64,000 nt of DNA, taken from NCBI RefSeq assembly GCF_947499945.1, contig NZ_CANMQD010000001.1:372001-436000 (forward strand). Direction: 5' to 3'. The notes beneath the pieces are model-generated. The model ran no database searches. It was given only the letters and a program-made list of their open reading frames with translations, and was not told the DNA's origin. The position numbers and the translations under genes were made by a program. Positions 10,680 through 13,551 of this stretch are shown here, piece by piece (position 1 is the stretch's first letter; each line of letters opens with the position of its first letter). This DNA comes from an uncultured Sulfitobacter sp. Lineage in GTDB: Bacteria > Pseudomonadota > Alphaproteobacteria > Rhodobacterales > Rhodobacteraceae.

Positions 10680-11684
10680 ATGGCACCCAAATCCACAGCG
10701 GCAAAACCCTACAACGTTGTTGTTGTGGGCCAGAATGGAAGGCTGTCATACGAGGCCGTGATTTTTGTCGCTTCGCTCCGCACCATGAGCCCTGATTTCA
10801 AAGGCCGCGTATTGGTTGCGGAGCCCCAAGTAGGTCCGTTGTGGGAAAAAGACCCCACCATCCGAAACCAGCAAGTCCGCGACGCTCTGACGGAGATGGG
10901 CGCAGAGATCATTCCCTTCGAGAACAAGCACTTTGGTGAGAAATATCCTTTCGGTAATAAAATCGAAATGCTGAGCGCTCTGCCTAAGGGCGAACCTTTT
11001 GTCTTCTTCGACACCGACACATTGATTACTGGCGATCTGAACGCAGTTCCCTTTGACTTTGACCGCCCCAGCGCCTCGCTCCGCCGCGAAGGGACATGGC
11101 CCCATCCCCAACTTTACGGTCCCGGCTATACGGGTTTGTGGAAATCGCTTTATGATAAATTCGGATTGGATTTTGAGTCCTCTCTGGATTTGAGCCAACC
11201 TGACGAATACTGGCGCCGCTACCTCTATTTCAATGCTGGTTTTTTCTTTTACAAATGCCCCCACGAGTTTGGCGCAAAATTCCTCGAATACGCCCTCGCC
11301 ATTCGCGACACACCGCCTGTCGAGCTTTGTGCGCAAGTGTTTGACCCTTGGCTGGATCAGATCGCCCTGCCCCTCGTCATTCACGCCCTTGGCGGTGGAC
11401 GCGACACCCTGCCCGATGGGCTGCTTGATGGCGCTGTAACTTGCCATTACCGCCTTCTGCCCCTGCTCTATGCCCGCGAAAGCGATCACGCGGTCGCTGT
11501 GCTGGAGCATGTGACAGCCCCCAATAAAGTCAAAAAGGTGCTCAAGAATTACGATCCTATCAAGCGCATGATTTATCAGGGCCGCGGCGTCAAAGCGCGC
11601 GCACTCTTTGATCAGAAAAATATGCCCCGCAAGGAGCAAGCGATCCGCAACCGTCTCAAATCAAACGGTTACTGGATGCGGTAA
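10680..11684 (+). CDS. GT-A-type glycosyltransferase-like protein
   Basis: The 334-residue soluble protein has the layout of a nucleotide-sugar transferase. The N-terminus is NVVVVGQNGRLSYEAVIFVASLRTM, with an acidic DxD motif (VFFDTDTLITGDL, about residues 109-121) that would bind metal and sugar nucleotide, then YLYFNAGFFFYKC and FDPWLDQIALPLVI, typical of acceptor-side helices in GT8-like enzymes. AAAGGAC precedes the ATG by six bases. Only two bases separate it from the next gene, so the two are surely cotranscribed and probably act together. The sugar and acceptor are unknown; a cell-surface glycan is the likely target. Confidence 0.7.
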   Translation: MAPKSTAAKPYNVVVVGQNGRLSYEAVIFVASLRTMSPDFKGRVLVAEPQVGPLWEKDPTIRNQQVRDALTEMGAEIIPFENKHFGEKYPFGNKIEMLSALPKGEPFVFFDTDTLITGDLNAVPFDFDRPSASLRREGTWPHPQLYGPGYTGLWKSLYDKFGLDFESSLDLSQPDEYWRRYLYFNAGFFFYKCPHEFGAKFLEYALAIRDTPPVELCAQVFDPWLDQIALPLVIHALGGGRDTLPDGLLDGAVTCHYRLLPLLYARESDHAVAVLEHVTAPNKVKKVLKNYDPIKRMIYQGRGVKARALFDQKNMPRKEQAIRNRLKSNGYWMR

Positions 11685-11686
11685 CG

Positions 11687-12697
11687 ATGACGCAGGAGGC
11701 AAAACGGCTCGGCTGGGTAGTCTGCGCCAACATCTCCGATCATCTGCGCAGCGGCCGTGAAAAAGGCCGCTTTTATCAAGGCACCCGTAAGTTCTCTGCC
11801 GGTACAAAAGTCTATCTGGGGGTGCCCTTCTGGGGCATGGGCGGCATTAACCTGCGGGTGGCGGGCCTGCACCGTATGTCGCGCAGTTGGACCACAAGCA
11901 TCATCTCAAGCAGCGTTCTGGTCAACATCCGTCCCTATGGCATCTATTCTCCCCGGAAATGGGAAACCATTACTGACAATTACGCCACTCCCTTTGATGC
12001 AAAGGAAGATGCCCTCCATTTCATGGAGTATATTATCGACGCCTCCTACCGCGAGCGGCCGGAAAAGATACAACCTGTCACAGTCGAGAGGCCTTGGGGC
12101 TATTTCCAGACGGCACCCTACCGTCCTGCTCCATCTGCCCCGTCGAGGGGTGACATTGGCCTCATTACCCGCTCCGCTCAATACGCAAATAAAGTCCATA
12201 TGGGCCACACACTGTGGCTTGGCACACACCATTCCTACATCAGCTACCTCAAGCAAACTACTGATATCGTGAAGAAAATAGATCCAGATCCAAGCGTTTT
12301 TTCAGCCGCTTGGTTACACGGAACGCTTACACGAACGGGGACTGGGTACAGGGAATTGGAAACACGTTTCGGCATGCGGGCTGCGGGACTTGTGCGCGAA
12401 CTGACCTACCCCGAACAGTCCGATGGCAAGCCGCCGATGCAGGCTCAATTTAACTGCGCAAGTCTGAAGACTAATGCCGCTAGCCTGATTGATGCGGCAA
12501 CACTCATCGTGACAACGCGCGAAATGCGCACCGACCCGCCAAATTGGCCGCGCGAGGGCACGCAGGCTTATCTAAACAACGCCACAAAAATCATCAAAAA
12601 GCTCGGCGTGGGAAGTACGCTGCGCCTGATGTTCGAAGAAGAGAAATTGGCGACGGGGCGTTTCTGGAAAACACTCCCGCCGCCACTCCCCGATTAA
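11687..12697 (+). CDS. protein with a degenerate SpoT/MESH1-type HD domain
   Basis: The first 150 residues (HLRSGREKGRFYQGTRKFSAGTKVYLGVPFWG...) form a domain I do not recognise. Residues about 160-335 follow the (p)ppGpp-hydrolase HD fold closely: AQYANKVHMGHTLWLGTHHSYISYLKQTTDIV, then FSAAWLHGTLTRTGTGYRELETRFGMRAAGLVRELT, then PPNWPREGTQAYLNNATKIIKKLG, which matches the end of MESH1-like proteins. The metal ligands are mostly gone: NHP is replaced by SYL, HD by HG, and the LAD aspartate by Thr (IVTTREMR). It is therefore probably not a hydrolase and may sense or bind a nucleotide. It shares an operon with the glycosyltransferase-like gene. Confidence 0.65.
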   Translation: MTQEAKRLGWVVCANISDHLRSGREKGRFYQGTRKFSAGTKVYLGVPFWGMGGINLRVAGLHRMSRSWTTSIISSSVLVNIRPYGIYSPRKWETITDNYATPFDAKEDALHFMEYIIDASYRERPEKIQPVTVERPWGYFQTAPYRPAPSAPSRGDIGLITRSAQYANKVHMGHTLWLGTHHSYISYLKQTTDIVKKIDPDPSVFSAAWLHGTLTRTGTGYRELETRFGMRAAGLVRELTYPEQSDGKPPMQAQFNCASLKTNAASLIDAATLIVTTREMRTDPPNWPREGTQAYLNNATKIIKKLGVGSTLRLMFEEEKLATGRFWKTLPPPLPD

Positions 12698-12700
12698 GGC

Positions 12701-13312
12701 TTAGGCCTCAGCCGCTACAGGCTTCTCAAGCAGCGTATAGGTCGCGATAACCGCATCCTGCACTTGTGCGCGTACCACACGGCCCTGCTCGTTACGCTTG
12801 CCGCGTGCGCCAACTGATTTCTTAATCACACGGCCGATTTGCTGGTTCAAGGAAACACGCGCACGGCTGGATTTGCCATCTTCGTCCATTTCCCCAAGTG
12901 CGGTTTCATATTGTGCTTTGAAGTTCGCATCTTTTTGCGCTTCTTTTACGACGGTTAAGATAAAATTCTCGTCGAACTTCCCTGCTTCATCGAGCTTTTT
13001 AGCCAATGCAACCGTGTGGTCAATCACGTGACGCTTCGCGGCAAGGCGCAGTGCCAGCGCGTCGTCCTTGGGTGCGGTGGCAATTACGTGGGTCTCGACC
13101 AGCTTTTGCATGTAGTGGGTCATATTCATGCCAGCGGCTTTTGCCTGTGCATCCATAAACTTGCGAACAGGCAATTCGAGCATGAACGTCACTGTAGAAG
13201 CCTTTTCAAGCTTCTCGAGGCGACGTGCACGGCCTCCTACTTTCTTATCGACCTTTGCCACTTTTGGGGCTTTGGCGGATTTTGTCTTTGTGATTTTTTC
13301 AATCTTTGTCAT
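12701..13312 (-). CDS. basic ribbon-helix-helix-like protein, probable autoregulator
   Basis: The 203-residue product has a Lys-rich N-terminus (KITKTKSAKAPKVAKVDKK) followed by TVTFMLELPVRKFMDAQAKAAGMNMTHYMQKLVETHV. That stretch reads as a strand and two helices like a ribbon-helix-helix DNA-binding domain (about 40-77). The rest is helical with a second basic stretch (RVIKKSVGARGKRN). AGGAGAC precedes the ATG. Two near-identical palindromic sites lie just upstream, where an autorepressor would bind. The gene converges on the HD-protein gene, with three bases between the ends. The family is not recognised and DNA binding is an inference. Confidence 0.6.
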   Translation of the reverse strand: MTKIEKITKTKSAKAPKVAKVDKKVGGRARRLEKLEKASTVTFMLELPVRKFMDAQAKAAGMNMTHYMQKLVETHVIATAPKDDALALRLAAKRHVIDHTVALAKKLDEAGKFDENFILTVVKEAQKDANFKAQYETALGEMDEDGKSSRARVSLNQQIGRVIKKSVGARGKRNEQGRVVRAQVQDAVIATYTLLEKPVAAEA

Positions 13313-13332
13313 TTTTGTCTCCTACCTCAAAA

Positions 13333-13387
13333 CATACTTGTAGTGTATGCGATGCAAGCCTACCCGTCAACATACTTGTTGTGTATG
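13333..13387. promoter_or_regulatory. tandem operator-like palindromes
   Basis: CATACTTGTAGTGTATG (13333-13349) recurs as CATACTTGTTGTGTATG (13371-13387) with one mismatch, 38 bases apart. Each has CATAC...GTATG arms around a 7-base centre. They sit 21-75 bases before the start of the ribbon-helix-helix-like gene, where the promoter must be. This is a typical arrangement for an autoregulated repressor. Confidence 0.65.
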
Positions 13388-13551
13388 AATCGCGAGTGTG
13401 ACCAAAACACAATTCCCCCCGAGTGCGATTTTTGGAACACCCATTCCAGCTAGCACCCCTAACTCGCGCAGATGTTCCTGACACGTGGCATGCCCTTGTC
13501 GCCTCTCCTGCAATCACGTAATCGTGCGCCTGAATTCAATGGGAGAAACGA

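Follow-up and report, generated by a model that had tools for sequence, protein, structure and literature searches.

A fusion of a GTKVY domain to a small alarmone hydrolase fold with an erased catalytic site in an uncultured Sulfitobacter

A 336-aa open reading frame in a window of 64,000 nucleotides from an uncultured Sulfitobacter sp. combines an N-terminal domain of the GTKVY type with a C-terminal HD fold of the MESH1/small alarmone hydrolase (SAH) kind, and no interruption occurs along the whole frame. The initial annotation had proposed a dead (p)ppGpp hydrolase fold joined to an unknown N-terminal domain, which could be a sensor or an adapted enzyme; the dead fold and the fusion are well supported, with eight of nine catalytic or pocket residues lost and the fold kept. 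The C-terminal half is of the MESH1/SAH lineage in both fold and ancestry, and it should be called a pseudo-SAH because it has neither the catalytic residues nor the one-domain architecture of a SAH. We consider it probable that the gene is a GTKVY-SAH fusion in which the hydrolase site was erased and the fold retained, with the GTKVY domain doing the work and the pseudo-SAH serving as a scaffold or interaction module. Coordinates of the features are collected in Table 1.

Table 1. Features of the fusion gene and the gene upstream of it, in window coordinates
Feature	Position	Strand	Evidence
Whole gene: GTKVY domain and pseudo-SAH (HD fold)	11687..12697	+	One frame holds both domains
GTKVY domain with C-terminal extension, residues 1-146	11687..12124	+	Profile 76.7 bits; G828 homologue; AlphaFold2 model
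GTKVY signature GTRKFSAGTKVY, residues 32-43	11780..11815	+	GT..F..GTKVY invariant in 49 aligned members (the same positions form the search pattern)
Pseudo-SAH domain, MESH1 fold, residues 153-336	12143..12694	+	phmmer to MESH1, 1.2e-7; model TM 0.82
RKG motif, Arg position R176, Leu in query	12212..12214	+	Relatives: 96% Arg
First metal-ligand His position, Tyr187 in query	12245..12247	+	Relatives: His 87/87
HD motif: H211 retained, Asp212 to Gly	12317..12322	+	Relatives: His and Asp 88/88
Glu-Asp pair after HD, Thr215-Arg216 in query	12329..12334	+	Relatives: Glu and Asp 88/88
KxAD..SN motif: Lys to D269, Asp ligand to T272, Asn to T276	12491..12514	+	Relatives 88/88
Core gene upstream of the fusion	10680..11684	+	Orthologues in 60/60 genus genomes

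Sequence matches and structure prediction both place a MESH1/SAH HD fold at residues ~153-330. Pfam HD_4 (PF13328) aligned with residues 165-241 at 25.3 bits (E 1.4e-5; gathering score 27.2), and in the genome-wide search it scored 26.3 bits, or 27.3 bits when neighbours were included, at the same cut-off. Searching the PDB with phmmer retrieved Drosophila MESH1 (3nqw) over residues 195-318 (E 1.2e-7) and human MESH1 (E about 1e-5). A full-length AlphaFold2 model built from 34 sequences predicted a helical C-terminal half mostly above pLDDT 90, with a loop at residues 172-179 below 50. The best Foldseek matches to this model were human MESH1 structures (9chy and 5vxa; TM 0.81-0.82 by target length, E about 1e-5), and other solved structures matched were Drosophila MESH1 and bacterial SAHs. 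The SpoT/MESH1-like HD domain read by eye in the initial annotation is thus borne out by a sequence E value of 1.2e-7 to Drosophila MESH1 and a modelled TM of 0.82; as far as prediction reaches, a fold other than HD is excluded.

Although the protein resembles MESH1 and SAH proteins in its HD fold (TM 0.82 to human MESH1) and in descent by sequence, it departs from them in the active site. In an alignment with 88 further distinct HD domains from SAH and long RSH proteins, the query kept only one of four metal ligands (H211). Nine catalytic and pocket positions were 96-100% invariant among up to 88 relatives, and H211 was the only one unchanged, the others reading R176L, H187Y, D212G, E215T, D216R, K269D, D272T and N276T. 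The first His, found in 87/87 relatives, is Y187, and the Asp residues of the HD and KxAD motifs, each 88/88 in relatives, are G212 and T272; the SYL, HG and T that had been placed by eye at the ligand sites were therefore aligned correctly. Glu215, Asp216, Lys269 and Asn276, each also 88/88, are Thr, Arg, Asp and Thr, and in the RKG motif Leu and Trp replace Arg and Lys. Among the 21 columns conserved at 90% or more, the query retains nine (H211, A167, H171, Y184, A208, L210, F228, G229 and V236); losses fell on eight of nine catalytic or pocket columns versus four of the other 12. Loss is concentrated in the pocket. On these substitutions, the pseudo-SAH is predicted no longer to hydrolyze (p)ppGpp, (p)ppApp or NADPH, and an adapted enzyme appears unlikely because metal ligands, Glu-Asp pair and basic pocket residues are all gone.

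The nearest relative of the HD half lies in the same genus and at the same locus. A search of 62 genus genomes with the full protein returned one other match, in G357, with 34% identity over residues 141-332 (E 7e-24). This gene (L033) codes for a SAH of 185 aa that consists of one domain and retains every catalytic residue, and it sits directly downstream of an orthologue (84% identical) of the gene that precedes the fusion. The two proteins have a C-terminal tail in common, FEEEKLATGRFW in the query and FEQETGMTAAFW in G357, and differ in that the G357 protein is catalytically complete and has no second domain. When the G357 protein was searched against 60 genus genomes, the only other matches were long Rel and, remotely, a 168-aa frame in G340. 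In a phylogeny built from 55 HD domains, the fusion paired with G357 (94/94), with branches of 3.01 and 0, respectively; the placement is unsure because the query branch is long. An orthologue with intact ligands, named in the initial annotation as evidence against the loss, thus exists, and it marks the loss as derived rather than refuting it.

The simplest reading is a common origin of the query HD half and the G357 SAH at one slot. This slot (11685-13551; loci L113-L141), which runs from the upstream core gene to an O-acetylhomoserine-sulfhydrylase-like gene, varies in content between species, being empty or holding an intact SAH, the fusion or other ORFs (e.g. L130). These differences suggest a variable site of insertion, and since it takes other inserts in other species, the shared locus could be coincidence. 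A SAH or pseudo-SAH occupies it in two of about 60 genus species, and the nearest relatives by upstream gene have neither. Foreign base composition of the fusion was rejected, as both halves are similar in G+C to the surrounding genes. The fused, dead form was found in one species only. A scan of 84,980 species genomes, sensitive to close relatives only, gave no close full-length relative, and the searches of species genomes, genus, plasmids and phages turned up no second fused form; matches among plasmids and phages were to the HD half only and were all ordinary SAH or RSH proteins.

The fusion ATG lies two bases past the stop codon of the upstream gene, so the two are likely to form an operon. 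Complete copies of the upstream gene in the genus are 73-88% identical. By eye, an FFDTDT motif suggests a glycosyltransferase-like protein; no match was obtained in Pfam, NCBIfam, PHROG or PDB, even with a profile. Convergent to the fusion (12701-13312, minus strand) is a gene whose 203-aa product has a basic N-terminus rich in lysine and matches no family significantly; this gene occupies the slot in some genus species and is absent from others. Promoter and terminator scans at the fusion gave nothing beyond chance. In this genome, a RelA_SpoT synthetase domain occurs only in a 731-aa long Rel and not in the fusion, and no small alarmone synthetase was found in the genome or next door. A role as antitoxin against a toxic alarmone synthetase is therefore unsupported.

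Single-sequence searches with the N-terminal half gave no match in the genus, class, plasmids, IMG/VR or PDB. Relatives were reached only with the motif pattern GT[KR]xFxxGTKVY, which served as a lead. It matched 75 stretches among species genomes; once translated, nearly all of them gave the same domain, about 110-130 aa long, from Bacteroidota, Bacillota, Planctomycetes, Actinomycetota and other groups; two (L044 and L047) were rejected as chance hits of the pattern. A profile built without the query scored the query at 76.7 bits and 500 motif-keeping shuffles at 29.5 bits or less. Masking the motif left the query at 28.0 bits, and the similarity extends outside the motif. GT..F..GTKVY is invariant in 49 aligned members, but these same positions were the search pattern; the query has all 11 conserved positions, three of which (N15, G60 and R82) lie outside it. 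Pfam and NCBIfam gave no significant match for four members tested. The GTKVY family (signature GTxxFxxGTKVY) is widespread, sporadic and absent from Pfam and NCBIfam. The N-terminal domain had been called unknown, which holds in that neither database has a model for it; it is not unique, being a member of a widespread, undescribed family.

Some GTKVY domains are fused to other domains: an R2K_3 ATP-grasp in L036, L059 and, weakly, L098, a methyltransferase in L043 and DUF1643 in L074. In the part of the published account drawn on here, R2K enzymes are predicted protein-peptide ligases, and no extra GTKVY-type domain is mentioned (PMC4431377). Among the members found, an HD domain occurs in the query only. 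One other clear copy was present among 397 genomes of the taxonomic family (G828); this protein of 154 aa stands alone, has 59 residues identical to those of the query and is similar as far as the point where the SAH starts. An AlphaFold2 model of the domain from 49 sequences (pLDDT 82) predicted five strands and two helices. Foldseek found no significant match to this model in PDB or BFVD, and weak SH3-like and Sm-like hits make an SH3-like label tentative. Genes beside GTKVY genes (L035-L111) are heterogeneous, with no common partner found; they include SUKH, AbiH, resolvase, transposase and phage genes. Three actinobacterial members (L038, L056 and L062) have a further common region after the domain, IERR.R.D...GGAWYG. 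The signature was not described for a bacterial domain in the open-access literature searched.

Divergence of the HD half was compared with neutral, stop-free evolution of the G357 gene simulated to equal identity. Over 185 codons, the query and the G357 gene differ at 95, 87 and 133 first, second and third positions, respectively, a skew reproduced in none of 400 simulations. The query scored 78.1 bits with the family profile, and 398 neutral simulations scored 47.9 bits or less (median 13.0), which rules out chance similarity to SAH. Hydrophobic positions were retained at 53 of 81, as against 50 +/- 4 in simulations, and so do not separate the query from neutral expectation. Because family score and codon-position skew lie beyond all simulations, the divergence is not neutral overall; the constraint may predate loss of the site. 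Plain neutral decay is not favoured by the 78.1-bit score.

These results bear on whether the hydrolase half is now simply decaying. If selection after fusion acted on the GTKVY domain only, the former hydrolase would be a passive tail drifting to loss, a course that fits the occurrence in a single species, the very long query branch and hydrophobic positions kept no better than under neutrality. However, the HD half carries no stop or frameshift, its losses are selective for the pocket, and its family score and codon skew exceed every simulation, albeit with the reservation on timing given above; we regard decay as somewhat unlikely. Slightly less probable still is separate entry of the G357 SAH and the query HD half into one insertion hotspot, the latter already fused and dead when it came from elsewhere as a unit. 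The rarity of either insert, its absence from the nearest relatives and the other genes carried in the slot elsewhere agree with independent entry. Against it stand the pairing in the tree, the common C-terminal tail, the neighbour-like G+C of both halves and the failure of the searches to find the fused form anywhere else.

Two further explanations assign the altered pocket a function. A pseudo-hydrolase that binds an alarmone or related nucleotide uncleaved and relays a signal to the GTKVY domain would be in keeping with the retained fold and with the regulatory part that HD domains have in RelA and SpoT (PMC8012599, PMC3153485). A (p)ppGpp sensor is weakened by the loss of the basic pocket residues: with the RKG Arg/Lys now Leu/Trp, Lys269 now Asp and Asn276 now Thr, the ppGpp pocket looks dismantled, and the loop at residues 172-179 is modelled at pLDDT <50. 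We judge a sensor of this type improbable. Polar residues new to the pocket (Y187, T215, R216, D269 and T272) could be taken to mean that the site was rebuilt as a different catalytic centre, but they occur in no relative and thus form no conserved new site, which leaves such an enzyme with a very slight chance.

The reading that we favour, a fusion with an erased site and a retained fold, would begin with a stand-alone GTKVY-domain protein becoming fused with a small alarmone hydrolase directly downstream of the genus core gene. The hydrolase half would have lost its metal and catalytic site while retaining its fold, presumably together with or after fusion. We take the GTKVY domain as the probable working part because its signature is intact while that of the hydrolase is erased. 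By analogy with the RelA pseudo-HD, the pseudo-hydrolase would act as a scaffold or interaction module and may bind another protein, or a ligand that does not resemble ppGpp. The gammaproteobacterial RelA pseudo-HD, which is regulatory and not catalytic, illustrates that a dead hydrolase fold can have a regulatory task (PMC8012599; PMC3153485), and like the query it retains an RSH-type HD fold without catalytic residues. Unlike RelA, the query lacks synthetase, TGS and ACT domains, and its loss is independent and in a SAH rather than a long RSH. The open-access literature searched yielded no account of a dead SAH fused in such a manner. The parts are of known kinds, namely SAH and RelA pseudo-HD; neither their combination nor the domain family is described in the databases and open-access literature searched.

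A broader view, to which we give slightly less than even odds, is that this is a SAH pseudoenzyme not belonging to a long RSH protein, and that fusion enlisted it to regulate, or provide interactions for, a domain of the widespread, undescribed GTKVY family. The analysis reveals that family as one with no Pfam or NCBIfam model, whose domain stands alone or is joined to putative protein-modifying enzymes. Two species of one genus provide a before-and-after pair in nature at one locus, with an intact SAH in one and a fused, erased SAH in the other. This pair allows the role of the HD hydrolase fold without hydrolysis, so far asked about mainly for the RelA pseudo-HD, to be addressed.
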